From Thermincola carboxydiphila (GTDB lineage: Bacteria > Bacillota > Thermincolia > Thermincolales > UBA2595), in assembly GCA_016841725.1 (NCBI GenBank), contig JAENYP010000004.1, forward strand, positions 1 through 64,000: a stretch of 64,000 bases of DNA. Reading direction: 5' to 3'. Position numbers and translations under genes: made by a program. The notes under the pieces were generated by a model. It did not search any database. It had not been told where the DNA came from and worked only from the letters and a program-made list of their open reading frames with translations. Every line of letters starts with the position of its first letter. Within the stretch, counting starts at the first letter, position 1. Positions 40,163 to 45,714 of the stretch are shown here, in pieces.

Positions 40163-40211
40163 ACTTTTAACTGTAGAGTGTTCGATTACATGCCAAATTT
40201 GACCAAAAAAC

Positions 40212-40330
40212 AAACAAGGGATTCCCGCCCCAAAATGCTGGAATCCCTTGACTTATGTTCATTATGGCGGAGAGACAGGGATTCGAACCCTGGGTACCGT
40301 GAGGTACACTCGATTTCGAGTCGAGCGCTT
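40212..40330 (-). repeat. tRNA-Ser(CGA) 3' fragment plus terminator, diverged copy
   Basis: The minus strand keeps a tRNA-Ser from the anticodon stem (CTCGACTCGAAATCGAG) through variable arm, T-arm and CCA (40265-40330), but lacks the acceptor 5' strand and D-arm. The downstream terminator hairpin (40212-40255) resembles those at 42169 and 45574 with several differences. It marks an old junction and also ends the flanking convergent transcripts. Confidence 0.8.
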
Positions 40331-40345
40331 TTGACAATAGGTCTA

Positions 40346-41023
40346 CTAAGCAGGTGCCTGCGTCAAATCCCAAAGTTTAATCACACTTCCTGGTGAAACG
40401 ACCTGGAATCTTTCATCCCACTGCCCCTTAACAAGCTTTCGCAAAACATCCAGCGTCCCGTGAATGCGATAAGTTTGCAGATCAAAGAATTGCGCCTGCT
40501 CTTTCATTTCCCTAAAAACAGCCTCTTGATCGTCAGCCTCGGTTTGAATTAATGCGAATCGTTTATAGTTTGCTAAAACACGCTTGGAAAACCGCAGGGA
40601 TTTCTCATGTCCCAGTTTGGGAACTAAAACCTCGTAAAATTTGTGTTTAGGATTAAAATGCTTCATCCACCCCCCGGTTAAAAAAAGCGCCCCCATTTCT
40701 GTTCCTAAATTAGCGCGATACCTTTCATCAGAACCTAATAACATAGCCAGGCAATCATGGTACTGAGGCAGAACCAGGGAAGACTGTTTACTTGTCAACC
40801 CAAGTAAACCATTACCGCACAGAGCATAGGCCAGTAAAATAAAATCTACATTGCTGATGCCATCAATTGTTTCCTGAAGGGCATCTCTCAACTTGTCCGG
40901 CTTCTCATGCAGTCCGGGTTGCATATAAATCACCGGGAACCCTATCTCGTTTTCCTCCAATACGTAATTAATCTCCTCTTCAATAGTGCGGCATGCGCAA
41001 ATTATAGCCTTAACTTTTAACAC
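40346..41023 (-). CDS. DUF1638 domain protein
   Basis: The product has about 225 residues and starts AIICACRTIEEEINYV. It has the LLAYALCGNGLLGL segment near residue 65, LPQYHDCLAMLLGS near 85 and GALFLTGGWMKHF near 115, typical of DUF1638. In methanogens and acetogens such genes accompany corrinoid methyltransferases; none is visible here. The start is uncertain: GTG 41023 sits directly after a G-run, and an in-frame ATG at 41077 has no site. It follows the 57-residue gene and marR on the same strand. Confidence 0.78.
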   Translation of the reverse strand: MLKVKAIICACRTIEEEINYVLEENEIGFPVIYMQPGLHEKPDKLRDALQETIDGISNVDFILLAYALCGNGLLGLTSKQSSLVLPQYHDCLAMLLGSDERYRANLGTEMGALFLTGGWMKHFNPKHKFYEVLVPKLGHEKSLRFSKRVLANYKRFALIQTEADDQEAVFREMKEQAQFFDLQTYRIHGTLDVLRKLVKGQWDERFQVVSPGSVIKLWDLTQAPA

Positions 41024-41212
41024 CCCCCGTTTCCATGATAGAAGAACAAACACAGTATTGGCATAAAGACATTTCATCGTTCAACCACTTATGTTTTACC
41101 GGGCAAAGAAAGTTATTGTCTTGACCAATAATTTTTTGCTCCTCTTTAAAGAACATGCCGGGTGGATGCAGCGGCTTCTTGACGATAAAAGCCAGATAAA
41201 TAGAAACAATCC

Positions 41213-41486: not shown

Positions 41487-41498
41487 GTGTATATACAC
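41487..41498. promoter_or_regulatory. MarR-type operator half of a matched pair
   Basis: The perfect palindrome GTGTATATACAC recurs at 41977-41988 just upstream of marR. Here it lies between marR and the 57-residue/DUF1638 genes. Confidence 0.6.
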
Positions 41499-41515: not shown

Positions 41516-41974
41516 TTAAGGCACAAGAGCCTCAATTTTAGAGAGTAATTCCGTCAAAGCAGCCACTTCTTCTTTCCCCAGATAGTTCACCAGCGAATTC
41601 TGAGCTTCTGACCAGACTGCCTCAGCTTCCAAAGTCAACTTGAGGCCTCTTTCCGTTAATTTCAGCTGACGGCTCCGGGTACCCGTTGCCGCTATGTCCT
41701 CAATGAAACCTTGCTCTTCGAGTGACCTAAGATTCCTTACAAGGGTGGTTCGATCAAGTCGCATTGCCAAAGCCAAATCGCTTACACTGACTGGCTCTAG
41801 GCTCTTTATGTGCGCCAAAAGTGAAAATTGGTTGACCCTCAATCCGCAAGGCTTAAGCAATTCATCGTACACGTGGGTTATGGCTTGGGAAGCCCGGCGC
41901 AAGTTAAGGCAATTGCAGACCGAAGGTTTCTTATTACGGGTCGTAAATTCCAAAACACCACCTGCTTCTGTCAT
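41516..41974 (-). CDS. MarR-family transcriptional regulator
   Basis: The 152-residue winged-helix protein has LRVNQFSLLAHIKSLEPVSV, recognition region LALAMRLDRTTLVRNLRSLE and wing GTRSRQLKLTERG. Cysteines in SVCNCLNLRR near residue 20 could be redox- or metal-sensitive. A perfect palindrome overlaps its transcription start, suggesting autorepression. Confidence 0.92.
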   Translation of the reverse strand: MTEAGGVLEFTTRNKKPSVCNCLNLRRASQAITHVYDELLKPCGLRVNQFSLLAHIKSLEPVSVSDLALAMRLDRTTLVRNLRSLEEQGFIEDIAATGTRSRQLKLTERGLKLTLEAEAVWSEAQNSLVNYLGKEEVAALTELLSKIEALVP

Positions 41975-42024
41975 TAGTGTATATACACTATTTAAATTAT
42001 ATTATAAGTAACCCTTCTTGTCAA
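41975..42024 (-). promoter_or_regulatory. marR promoter and operator
   Basis: Minus-strand TTGACA (42019-42024), 17-nt spacer, TATAAT (41996-42001) is a full consensus promoter. The 16-nt palindrome TAGTGTATATACACTA (41975-41990) covers the start site and touches the marR ATG. Nothing else is seen up to 42168. Confidence 0.8.
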
Positions 42025-42168: not shown

Positions 42169-42248
42169 AAACAAGGGATTCCTGCCCCAATAGCAGAAAT
42201 CCCTTGACTTATATTCATTATGGCGGAGAAGGTGGGATTCGAACCCAC
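42169..42248 (-). repeat. 80-nt direct repeat: tRNA-Ser 3' end plus terminator (copy 2)
   Basis: Identical over 80 nt to 45574-45653. It contains only the T-arm/acceptor 3' strand and CCA of tRNA-Ser(CGA) and the following terminator hairpin. It borders the islet carrying the radical-SAM and WG genes and serves as their terminator. Confidence 0.9.
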
Positions 42249-42301
42249 TAGACCCTTCAACAGATGGAACCCCTTTTGGGTTTTTTCCTTTCCTGTACAA
42301 A

Positions 42302-43711
42302 TCACCCTCCCGCAGCCAAATTCCAGAATAGCTCCTGTAGGACTGTTTTGCTTACCGTGCATGATATTTCACGCACATATTCTTTTAATTCATTGGGAGC
42401 TTTGGGATTTCCCTCTATAGAAAAAATCCCTATAGGACATCCCCCTCCGCAAAGGTATCTGTAACTACATTCCCGGCATTTCTTTCTATTATCGACGTTA
42501 ACGATATCAAGCATTCTTGCCAGCACATTTTTTCTGGGGAAATCATCCATTAGAATATTGCCCACTTCATACTGTTTGTTTCCGACCAGATAAATGCAGG
42601 AATATATCTCGCCGTTGCTGGTAATAACAGGAGTATTTCCAATGGGAGCACCACACCCCCAGGGGTTTTTAAATGAAGGCTGAAGACGGTGATTATATTC
42701 ATTGAAGGGGTAAAGGCTTGTAATTGGCCAAATACCTGAATGAAATACTTCTCTAAGGCCTTCTGCATATTTTTGGGGTGACGGGCACAACTCAAGGTCC
42801 AGCAGCTTAATATCTGAATCTACGGGATTTAAGGGAACAAAAGCGCAGCCAGCTGCCCCAAGCTCCTGATGCGTTTTCGCCACATCCATCATTAAGGAAT
42901 CAGTATAGCTGGTCACGGTTGCCCGTAAGGAAACTTTAAGACCGGCTTTGATAAGTTTTTCAACGTTACCTGCGGTTGTCCGGAAGCTTCCTTGGCCATT
43001 AATAAAAGGCCGTGTTTTGTTGTGAATTTCTTCAGGTCCATCAATATCAACCAAGAATGTGATGTTATTTTGCAAAGCAACTTCAATAAGGTCATCAGGG
43101 AATAATGTAAGATTGGTTGTCAGGTGATAAGCAATTTGCTTGCCGGGATTTCTAGGAATCAGGTTATTATTGCAATAATCAATTACCTTTTTTGCTAGAT
43201 TCCAATTCATCAGAGGTTCGCCGCCAAAAAATACTATTTCCAATTTGCCAAATTCAGCAATTGAATCAAGTATGTTGTCAAGAGACTTGAACGCAACTTC
43301 CTCTGACATCATTAAAGATTCGTGTTTTTGGTATGTATTCTTTCCGTTAAAACAATAGATACAAGCTTGGTTGCAGCTATGAGTTAATAAGAGATATACA
43401 CTGCGCGAAAACGATAACCTCTCTGCCATTTCATACCCGCAGCACTTTTTTTGTTCTATGGTTTTGCTGGAATCTTCCGGGATTATAAGAAAATGTGCAC
43501 AAAAAAAATCAAATGCCTCCTGTGAGCAAAAATCAGGCAGGCAAGCGGCAGAAATAGGCCCCATTTTTTTTAATTCCGCAAGTAAATCTAGGGCTTGATT
43601 TCCGCCAACAGGAAAATATATTGGGTTCACCTGAACTGCATTGAAAATAATTATTTCTTCTCCGCGTTTGAGGACTTCGATCTCATCAGCAACAACAAAA
43701 TGTGCTTGCAT
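42302..43711 (-). CDS. Radical-SAM/SPASM peptide maturase-like enzyme
   Basis: This 469-residue enzyme has an N-terminal region of about 90 residues that may bind a precursor. The radical-SAM cluster motif CNQACIYC follows near residue 113, with FFGGEPLMN near 170. A SPASM domain has cysteines in NPWGCG, EIYSCIY and CRECSYRYLCGGGCP near 345-430. Such enzymes install thioether or carbon-carbon links in ribosomal peptides; Cys-rich peptide maturases of the CcpM type are the closest class I can think of. It lies 22 nt after the WG-repeat gene, whose C-terminus is the candidate substrate. Confidence 0.9.
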   Translation of the reverse strand: MQAHFVVADEIEVLKRGEEIIIFNAVQVNPIYFPVGGNQALDLLAELKKMGPISAACLPDFCSQEAFDFFCAHFLIIPEDSSKTIEQKKCCGYEMAERLSFSRSVYLLLTHSCNQACIYCFNGKNTYQKHESLMMSEEVAFKSLDNILDSIAEFGKLEIVFFGGEPLMNWNLAKKVIDYCNNNLIPRNPGKQIAYHLTTNLTLFPDDLIEVALQNNITFLVDIDGPEEIHNKTRPFINGQGSFRTTAGNVEKLIKAGLKVSLRATVTSYTDSLMMDVAKTHQELGAAGCAFVPLNPVDSDIKLLDLELCPSPQKYAEGLREVFHSGIWPITSLYPFNEYNHRLQPSFKNPWGCGAPIGNTPVITSNGEIYSCIYLVGNKQYEVGNILMDDFPRKNVLARMLDIVNVDNRKKCRECSYRYLCGGGCPIGIFSIEGNPKAPNELKEYVREISCTVSKTVLQELFWNLAAGG

Positions 43712-43733
43712 AGAGTTTTTCTTCTCCTTTACC

Positions 43734-45374
43734 TTAAACGTAAGTACAGACTGCAGTGCAGCCCATTGTACAGCCCATGGTGCAGCTCCAGTCGCAGGGA
43801 TTGTTTATGGGGCCGACGTTTAAGTCAGGTGCTGATTCTTCTATCGAAATCAACTCCCCCTGCTTGTCATAATATTTTATGAGCATTCCCTTTTTGTCTA
43901 TAAAGGCACTTGTATCACCAACTTTAACAGGTGCCAATCCACCTGAAAAAGCCCCGGCCTCATCAAAGATGGTACTGATCACCATCTTTCCATCGTAGTC
44001 TATATAACCCCATTTATCACCACGTTTAACTGTCGCCAATCCTTCTGAATATTCGACATTTTGTGTTTCTGATTGAGAGCTGCCGTTGTCCTGATTGATA
44101 GGCTCCGGGGATTGTAATTCAGATGTCGGTTCTTCCATAGTTGGTTCTGGTGCTGGCGTCTGTTCTAAAAAGGACAAAACAATATTACCCTTCTTATCAA
44201 TGTACCTCCAGTTGTCCCCAACCTTGACAGCCGCCCAGCCTTCCGAAAATGTAAAGGCATCGTCATATTGGGCACTTATCACCAGCTTTCCCTGCTTATC
44301 TATATAGCCCCATTTATCACCAAGCCTAACTCTGGCCAATCCTTCAAAAAAAGACCAAGAACCATCATCAAACTGAGCATTGATCACCATATTCCCCTTC
44401 TTGTCTATATACCCCCATTTATCACCACTTTTAACCGCAGCCAAGCCTTCCGAAAAAGACCAGGAACCTTCATCAAACTGGGTGCTTATGACCATATTTC
44501 CCTTCTTGTCTATATAGCCACATTTATCACCACGTTGAACTACTGCCAGCCCTTCAGCAAAAGAACCGGCCCAATCAAACTGAGCACTTATCACCATTTT
44601 CCCCTTCTTGTCTACATACCCATATTTATCACCACTTTTAACCGCAGCCAAGCCTTCCGAAAAAAGAGAGGCATAATCAAACTGGATACCTATCACCAGA
44701 TTCCCCTTCTTATCTATATAGCCAAATTTATCACCACGTTTAACCGCGGCCAATCCTTCCGAAAAAGCCCAGGAACCATCATCAAACTGGGCGCTTATGA
44801 CCATATTTCCCTTCTTGTCTATATAGCCATAATTATCCCCATATTGAACTACTGCCAATCCTTCGGAAAAAGACCAGGAACCTTCACCAAACTCGGCACT
44901 TATGACCATATTTCCCTTCTTATCTATATAGCCATATTTATCACCGAGTTTAACTCTGGCCAAGCCTTCGGAAAAAGGCCAAGTATTATCAAACTGGGCA
45001 CTTATGACCATATTCCCCTTCTTATCTATATAGCCATATTTATCACCACGTCTAAACATTGCCAACCCTTCCGAAAAAGAACCGGCAAAATCAACCGCGA
45101 ATTTCTCTTTAGCATTTTGGGTAGCAAAAAGAGAGTAACCCCCGCCCTGATTTTTTGAGCCAGGTTCCAGGGAACACCCATAAAGAGATATTCCGATTAT
45201 GCCTATGCCTATCAAACCTGTGGTTACCAGTGTTTTCGTTGATACTGAGTTGAAATTTGCTGTAATAATCAAACATTTTCTTGGCGTATTGTCTTTGGTC
45301 ACTATGGTGCACTTTTTCTGGCAATCGGTTCCTTCTCCAGAGACTTTTTGTCCTTCTGAATTCTGACTATCCAT
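43734..45374 (-). CDS. WG-repeat protein with C-terminal CX3 repeat tail
   Basis: The 546-residue protein has a Cys-containing N-terminus, a hydrophobic helix (about 49-68, ending LYGC) and eleven WG-type repeats of about 34 residues (FSEGLA..GDKYGYIDKKGNMVISAQF). A Pro/Glu linker separates repeats 9 and 10. The last 20 residues (527-546, DNA 43737-43796) are five CX3 units: CDWS, CTMG, CTMG, CTAV, CTYV. WG repeats are usually extracytoplasmic binding modules. The tail looks like a ribosomal peptide core for the adjacent radical-SAM enzyme. Confidence 0.88.
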   Translation of the reverse strand: MDSQNSEGQKVSGEGTDCQKKCTIVTKDNTPRKCLIITANFNSVSTKTLVTTGLIGIGIIGISLYGCSLEPGSKNQGGGYSLFATQNAKEKFAVDFAGSFSEGLAMFRRGDKYGYIDKKGNMVISAQFDNTWPFSEGLARVKLGDKYGYIDKKGNMVISAEFGEGSWSFSEGLAVVQYGDNYGYIDKKGNMVISAQFDDGSWAFSEGLAAVKRGDKFGYIDKKGNLVIGIQFDYASLFSEGLAAVKSGDKYGYVDKKGKMVISAQFDWAGSFAEGLAVVQRGDKCGYIDKKGNMVISTQFDEGSWSFSEGLAAVKSGDKWGYIDKKGNMVINAQFDDGSWSFFEGLARVRLGDKWGYIDKQGKLVISAQYDDAFTFSEGWAAVKVGDNWRYIDKKGNIVLSFLEQTPAPEPTMEEPTSELQSPEPINQDNGSSQSETQNVEYSEGLATVKRGDKWGYIDYDGKMVISTIFDEAGAFSGGLAPVKVGDTSAFIDKKGMLIKYYDKQGELISIEESAPDLNVGPINNPCDWSCTMGCTMGCTAVCTYV

Positions 45375-45453
45375 AAGTTATCACTCCCAGTTTCCCGAAT
45401 CGCTATTCTAATGAATCAATTTACCTGCAAATAATTACCGTTATTACAGTTAT

Positions 45454-45481
45454 GTTATATTATACCCTTAGCAACTGTCAA
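45454..45481 (-). promoter_or_regulatory. Sigma-A promoter of the WG/radical-SAM operon
   Basis: Minus-strand TTGACA (45476-45481), 16-nt spacer, TATAAC (45454-45459). It lies about 80 nt before the WG gene start. No other feature is seen in 45375-45565. Confidence 0.6.
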
Positions 45482-45565
45482 TACTAGCACACTGCTTAGG
45501 TAAAATACCGGCAAAAATGCCGAGATTAAAATTACCGTTACATGTTCATGAATAACCTGCTCTTC

Positions 45566-45653
45566 CAAACAAAAAACAAGGGATTCCTGCCCCAATAGCA
45601 GAAATCCCTTGACTTATATTCATTATGGCGGAGAAGGTGGGATTCGAACCCAC
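45566..45653 (-). repeat. 80-nt direct repeat copy 3 and tRNA-Ser terminator
   Basis: 45574-45653 equals 42169-42248 exactly. Here it belongs to an intact tRNA-Ser gene: the T-arm and acceptor end, then a hairpin AAGGGATT/AATCCCTT with inner CTGC/GCAG pairing and T6. Confidence 0.9.
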
Positions 45654-45714
45654 GTGCCCTTGCGGACAACCGCATTTCGAGTGCGGCGCGTTACAGCCTC
45701 TTCGCTACTTCTCC
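45626..45714 (-). tRNA. tRNA-Ser (CGA)
   Basis: The intact 89-nt class II tRNA has acceptor GGAGAAG, anticodon CGA in ACTCGAAAT, a long variable arm and an encoded CCA. Its 3' end is the likely integration target that generated the duplicated ends at 42169. Confidence 0.95.

Follow-up and report, generated by a model that had tools for sequence, protein, structure and literature searches.

Of the systems so far described, those lying closest to the locus considered here are the ranthipeptide systems, in which a radical-SAM enzyme of the SPASM subfamily introduces thioether cross-links into a cysteine-rich substrate encoded beside it. Even for the SCIFF peptide CteA, modified by CteB, the linkage is disputed, having originally been given as Cys32-Thr37 and later as Cys32-Thr34 (PMC8326336), while PapB is known to tolerate both varied spacing and nested links (PMC9413430). 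Nor need the substrate be a peptide that is subsequently released, since the SPASM enzyme QhpD is known from experiment to staple QhpC, a protein that is retained (PMC7876137).

The present analysis concerns a pair of genes within a window of 64,000 nucleotides (the whole stretch of DNA analysed) from Thermincola carboxydiphila, one coding for a distant relative of these enzymes and the other for a large WG-repeat protein with a remarkably regular array of cysteines at its C-terminus. The interpretation favoured here, with moderate confidence, is that the two constitute a protein-stapling cassette, in which the enzyme would cross-link the C-terminal tail of its partner so that what results is a surface protein with a stapled tail and not an excised peptide.

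The two-gene islet and its tRNA-Ser locus

Both genes lie on the minus strand, the WG-repeat gene (43734..45374, 546 aa) being upstream of the enzyme gene (42302..43711, 469 aa) and separated from it by just 22 bp between the stop codon of the former and the ATG of the latter. The enzyme reading frame is intact and its ATG is preceded by an AAGGAG Shine-Dalgarno sequence, while a single promoter-like site, TTGACA-18-TAACAT (45452..45481, minus strand; a consensus match only), is found upstream of the WG gene. The view taken in the preliminary description, that these genes form a minimal two-gene unit, is borne out.

That description also held that the pair occupies a private islet bounded by repeats. 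This is correct in so far as exact 80-bp repeats are present; what had been missed is that the repeats derive from a tRNA-Ser gene. One end of the islet is formed by an intact tRNA-Ser(cga) gene (45626..45714, minus strand), the 3' end of which, together with a terminator hairpin, makes up the first repeat copy (45574..45653, minus strand), while the identical second copy (42169..42248, minus strand), consisting of a tRNA-Ser 3' fragment and terminator, forms the other end and doubles as a terminator following the enzyme gene. Between them the enzyme and WG genes alone fill the islet: it contains no integrase and, as had been stated earlier, no exporter or protease gene, nor is there any other precursor-like reading frame (small, Cys-rich and on the coding strand) in 42250-45570. 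The tRNA-Ser 3' end and terminator occur once more in a third copy, which has diverged (40206..40331, minus strand) and bounds the next islet.

In two congeners the tRNA-Ser locus is flanked by the same genes as here and carries different cargo, the enzyme being missing from both; the locus is an insertion hotspot. In one of these congeners (G002 C13, L156:2034-3150) a toxin-antitoxin-like pair, comprising an 88-aa protein and a ParE-like protein of 101 aa, is situated between the tRNA and a tRNA 3' fragment. The adjoining tRNA-bounded islet in the window holds a DUF1638 gene (40346-41077) and a MarR regulator gene (41516-41974), the latter having the palindrome GTGTATATACAC at both its ends (41487-41498 and 41977-41988) and a perfect TTGACA-17-TATAAT beside it (42024-41996).

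Motifs and family placement of the enzyme

The enzyme scores 65.6 bits against the Pfam Radical_SAM model PF04055 (cut-off 29.5), which places it among the radical-SAM proteins. As previously reported, it has the cluster motif CNQACIYC (CX3CX2C; residues 113-120) and a full set of SPASM cysteines; in addition GGEP occurs at residues 163-166. The SPASM cysteines are residues 353, 372, 412, 415, 421, 425 and 451 which, together with G367, fit the seven-cysteine pattern C-x9-15-G-x4-C / C-x2-C-x5-C-x3-C / C corresponding to two auxiliary clusters, and in an alignment they coincide with the conserved cysteines of 37 relatives. The Pfam SPASM model gives 15.6 bits, under its cut-off of 21.5, so the assignment is based on the cysteine pattern and on the NCBIfam SPASM models; having all seven cysteines, the enzyme belongs to the SPASM subfamily.

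An RRE had been envisaged in the first 90 residues but was not demonstrated: residues 1-100 are modelled with pLDDT below 50, in the order beta-beta-alpha-alpha, and comparison of the N-terminus with the RREs of relatives using hhalign gave a probability below 1% and no profile match. The N-terminus weakly resembles that of a FibroRumin enzyme, which is to be taken as a lead only.

Assigning the enzyme to a family is less straightforward. Its highest NCBIfam scores are for PapB and the nif11 maturase (181 bits each), followed by the SCIFF maturase (161), the ‘not ScfB’ model (159), QhpD (147), HxsB (126), CcpM (118) and the anaerobic sulfatase maturase (107.5), and all of these are far under the respective cut-offs, so that membership of any NCBIfam radical-SAM family was rejected. 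For PapB (NF047865) the cut-off is 340 bits and members score 359-390; for ScfB (TIGR03974) the corresponding values are 425 and 537-726. The cut-off for QhpD (TIGR03906) is 453 bits, and the islet is in any case without qhp genes; that for CcpM (TIGR04068) is 500, a value exceeded by the genome's true CcpM elsewhere, at 567 bits (L003), and that for the sulfatase maturase (TIGR03942) is 349. Other enzymes from the ranthipeptide side give the profiles in this order as well, while CcpM-type and TIGR04463-type controls rank otherwise; the order favours the thioether-forming ranthipeptide enzymes.

Searching the PDB by sequence places CteB on top (5wgg, E 1.5e-27), as does a Foldseek search with the enzyme model (1.7e-20), although the latter is biased because the alignment underlying the model is rich in ScfB sequences. 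Two maximum-likelihood trees both leave the enzyme by itself on a long branch, in the vicinity of PapB, nif11, QhpD, ScfB and viral enzymes. The first tree splits it from the sulfatase maturases with support of 88/74, whereas the second leaves the sulfatase maturases unresolved; this, with the PapB score of 181 bits as against 107.5, agrees with the expectation that the enzyme would not group with anaerobic sulfatase maturases. Four clades had been named for comparison, those of CcpM, QhpD, the ranthipeptides and the sactipeptides; the enzyme falls into none of them, the ranthipeptide group being the nearest. On the strength of these comparisons, the enzyme lies on the ranthipeptide side of the SPASM families (PapB, nif11, SCIFF, QhpD) and outside every defined family.

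The highest identity found, 30-31%, is to SCIFF maturases. No relative of more than 31% identity is present in 149 relative and 398 phylum genomes (sets that overlap), the sole match in a scan of GTDB genomes is distant (22% identity), and no second genome with the enzyme and WG pair was found among the genomes scanned. Whether relatives of the enzyme have WG proteins as neighbours had been proposed as a check. Their neighbours are SCIFF peptides instead or, at viral loci, large proteins of other kinds that end in Cys-repeat tails. The SCIFF maturases closest to the enzyme adjoin SCIFF peptides in five relative genomes and in its own genome (C14:110394), and the neighbouring SCIFF peptides of the nearest cellular homologues end in ...CQASCQSACKTSCTVGNQVC, with the same CX3C spacing as the WG tail.

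Other radical-SAM peptide loci also occur in this genome. On the islet's own contig, about 66 kb away, there is a canonical SCIFF precursor (46 aa) with an ScfB-type maturase of 489 aa (L065:9816-11492; G000 C14:109.8-111.5 kb). The true CcpM enzyme mentioned above lies at L068:6250-8879 (G000 C16), and a CcpM-like enzyme adjoins a Gly/Cys-rich peptide of 116 aa at L067:5730-8971 (G000 C19), a homologous locus being present in another genome (G003, L127).

The WG-repeat protein and its cysteine tail

The presumed substrate comprises a Cys-bearing N-terminal segment, a hydrophobic stretch near residues 47-67, ten WG repeats (385 bits) and a C-terminal CX3C tail, the sequence at the C-terminus being PCDWSCTMGCTMGCTAVCTYV. 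The hydrophobic stretch suggests a membrane anchor, and the protein is probably membrane-anchored, in a presumed orientation. Its structure model is of low confidence (pLDDT 54), and a fold search with that model, which gave only generic matches of the beta-propeller type, was discarded as evidence.

Attention centres on the tail, CDWSCTMGCTMGCTAVCTYV (C527-V546; 43737..43796, minus strand), presumed to be the site of cross-linking, in which every fourth residue is a cysteine (527, 531, 535, 539 and 543 of 546). The body of WG repeats is almost free of cysteine, having C285 only, and the remaining cysteines (C18, C22, C34 and C67) are in the N-terminal segment. With a local cysteine frequency of 1.28%, five cysteines spaced at a period of four would be expected by chance among the last 60 residues with a probability of about 1.5e-8 per protein. 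Within residues 18-34, ahead of the hydrophobic stretch, there is a further CX3CT unit, DCQKKCT, which might itself be modified or might act as a recognition element.

In its own genome the motif CX3CTX2CTX2C occurs in the WG tail only and, among the looser CX3C-array matches listed there, those whose surroundings were examined proved to be other radical-SAM loci. Of 26 WG proteins inspected this is the only one to combine a Cys-repeat tail with a radical-SAM neighbour, the 25 others from the phylum having neither more than one cysteine in the last 40 residues nor a radical-SAM-like reading frame within flanks of 1.5 kb. Comparison of the N-terminus and tail with plasmids gave no meaningful match, and comparison of the WG protein with viral contigs gave none at all. 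In 398 genomes the motif returned mostly chance or out-of-frame matches and one that is peptide-like, a 59-aa peptide ending in SCVTCKSTCTCNCTFNCTMLIC (L063:7012-7191, G313 C30; also L030); this adjoins a subtilisin-like gene, and no radical-SAM gene was found in the 15 kb examined. A Campylobacter plasmid (L072) carries, close to a FibroRumin locus, a WG fragment of 54 aa, which was regarded as incidental.

Large cysteine-tailed proteins in viral contigs and elsewhere

Scanning viral contigs with the enzyme alignment yielded 80 loci. CX3C-rich C-terminal tails were found in 20 of 489 reading frames of at least 120 aa at viral loci and in 0 of 234 controls (Fisher p 0.0004), an enrichment that is suggestive because the controls, taken from bacterial non-radical-SAM loci fetched for other reasons, are unmatched to the phage loci. 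When reading frames of at least 60 aa are considered, such tails occur in 10 of the 125 that directly adjoin a radical-SAM gene, as against 13 of 430 others (p 0.02). In five cases (L202:5308-6132, L208:5340-6323, L221:5344-5943, L232:5294-6442 and L234:5337-6902) the tail reads ...SCQVSCQ..CQ.SCQ.C; further examples are L203:655-1842, L242:620-3415 and L256:1902-3671. The enzymes accompanying these proteins score 147-200 bits against the PapB profile, comparable to the islet enzyme. Matches to PHROGs tail families were seen among the partners, the clearest being L256 with the tail protein phrog_400 (E 3e-14) and those for L234, L242 and L190 being weaker, and it is possible that the viral CX3C-tailed proteins are radical-stapled virion proteins.

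A further large protein with a cysteine tail, the annotated CefA, is encoded on a Methylomagnum plasmid (L111:94-2133; 679 aa, ricin-lectin/crystallin-like). Its tail, CGADACGADA, has a cysteine at every fifth residue, and it adjoins an enzyme of the TIGR04463 type, from a different SPASM branch.

Proposed function and alternatives

The operon would yield a WG-repeat protein, probably membrane-anchored and with a repeat domain of beta-strands, together with the SPASM radical-SAM enzyme. Acting in the cytoplasm, the latter would reduce SAM at its CX3CX2C cluster and take hydrogen from acceptor residues in the tail, whereupon the cysteine sulfur atoms, steered by the auxiliary clusters, would close thioether rings. 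The tail can be parsed as four [D/T]-x-x-C units or, equally, as four C-x4-T units, the former placing the acceptor three residues ahead of the cysteine, as for Asn20-Cys23 of NxxcA, and the latter corresponding to the Cys32-Thr37 linkage first assigned in CteA. Under either parsing there are four units, so that at most four links of the ranthipeptide type, with a mass loss of no more than 8 Da, are predicted; the acceptor spacing is ambiguous, since the CteA linkage is itself disputed (PMC8326336). Insertion or export would follow, giving a protein whose tail is rigid independently of disulfides. That the islet lacks protease and exporter genes is to be expected if the product stays attached, as leader cleavage and peptide export would then be needless.

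This reading draws on the compact two-gene layout, the intact motifs, the profile ranking, the concentration of cysteines in the tail and the precedents for a large partner (the phage proteins, CefA and QhpC). Weighing against it are the failure to find the pair in a second genome among those scanned, the low identity of the enzyme to its relatives and its scores under all family cut-offs, an N-terminus in which no RRE could be shown, a WG protein in which no leader was recognised, the ambiguous acceptor spacing, the low confidence of the WG model and the unmatched controls of the viral comparison.

There are other ways in which the same arrangement might be read. Because the cysteine array sits at the extreme C-terminus, as a RiPP core would, and has SCIFF-like spacing, it could be supposed to be a conventional core on an oversized leader, from which a host protease encoded elsewhere frees a small signal or bacteriocin peptide; the three other radical-SAM peptide loci of this genome (SCIFF on C14, CcpM on C16 and the Gly/Cys-rich peptide on C19) would be in keeping with this. 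However, a repeat protein of 520 residues would be unusual as a leader, an obvious cleavage motif is missing, the islet is without a protease or exporter and the analogous phage proteins appear structural, all of which makes this reading unlikely. A similarly small likelihood is attached to the enzyme carrying out some other modification of the WG protein (a sactionine, epimerisation, oxidation of Cys or Ser, or a C-C link), or to its acting on the N-terminal cysteines C18, C22 and C34 besides or instead of the tail. SPASM enzymes do vary in their chemistry, this one is isolated on a long branch in both trees, and the N-terminal DCQKKCT unit would offer an alternative site; against this, the profile ranking points to thioether formation, and cysteines are far denser in the tail than anywhere else in the protein.

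Regular CX3C arrays are able to ligate metals, and the tail could accordingly be thought to bind an Fe-S cluster or another metal, or to form disulfides, the enzyme having an unrelated substrate. No homologous pair was found that would prove the two genes to be linked, which speaks for this idea. It is nevertheless the least probable of the three, given that the islet and the operon consist of these two genes only and that the other such CX3C arrays followed up are substrates, or candidate substrates, of radical-SAM enzymes.

If the stapling interpretation is correct, ranthipeptide-type chemistry would serve to harden whole proteins at their tails, phage proteins among them, besides making small peptides. 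A two-gene system needing neither protease nor exporter would offer a simple tool for introducing irreversible C-terminal staples into proteins, and for the phage pairs it would become a testable matter whether virions bear radical-made thioether links. More tentatively, with confidence falling a little short of that attached to the cassette itself, SPASM radical-SAM enzymes may include a general class whose substrates are not released RiPPs but large proteins that are retained (WG proteins at the surface of cells, structural proteins of phages), modified in their C-terminal CX3C tails; the WG islet would then be a cellular member of this class at a tRNA hotspot. A literature search, with most subscription journals outside its scope, returned no mention of WG repeats together with radical-SAM enzymes, and a search within the same range of journals found nothing relevant on pairs of phage proteins and radical-SAM enzymes.

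Comparison with known systems

As in ranthipeptide systems generally, a Cys-rich candidate substrate is encoded beside the enzyme, in this case the WG protein with its CX3C tail, 22 bp upstream. To judge from the sequences, the system would resemble ranthipeptide systems in its working, yet it falls short of the score threshold of every defined family.

By pairwise identity SCIFF/ScfB is the closest system, and CteB the best solved relative; the layout of radical-SAM and SPASM domains is common to both, and the CX3C cysteines near the substrate C-terminus (CKTSCT in SCIFF, CTMGCT in the WG tail) are alike. The differences are that the SCIFF substrate is a peptide of about 45 aa and not a repeat protein of 546 aa, that the RRE region has no sequence match, and that the ScfB-specific GPCxxKR cysteine is missing from the enzyme. 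PapB, of the freyrasin system, is the joint top profile and makes many short links in a Cys-repeat core, but PapA is a short peptide with CX3D units, whereas the WG tail has Thr in place of Asp at all sites except one. QhpD resembles the proposed system in stapling a retained subunit (PMC7876137); QhpC, however, has a cleaved leader, a dedicated protease and an exporter, and its fold and link spacing are unlike those of the WG protein.

The remaining parallels concern the size of the partner. CefA, with its CefB-type enzyme, is likewise a large multi-domain protein having a Cys-repeat C-terminal region and a SPASM enzyme beside it, although its cysteine period is five, its tail exceeds 150 residues and its enzyme is of another branch. 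At the phage loci PapB-like enzymes are found near proteins of 160-930 aa with terminal CX3C arrays; these differ from the islet in having, in most of the tails, Q or E and not T after cysteine, in lacking WG repeats and in that their enzymes form separate clades, while sharing with it the placing of a CX3C array at the end of a large protein.
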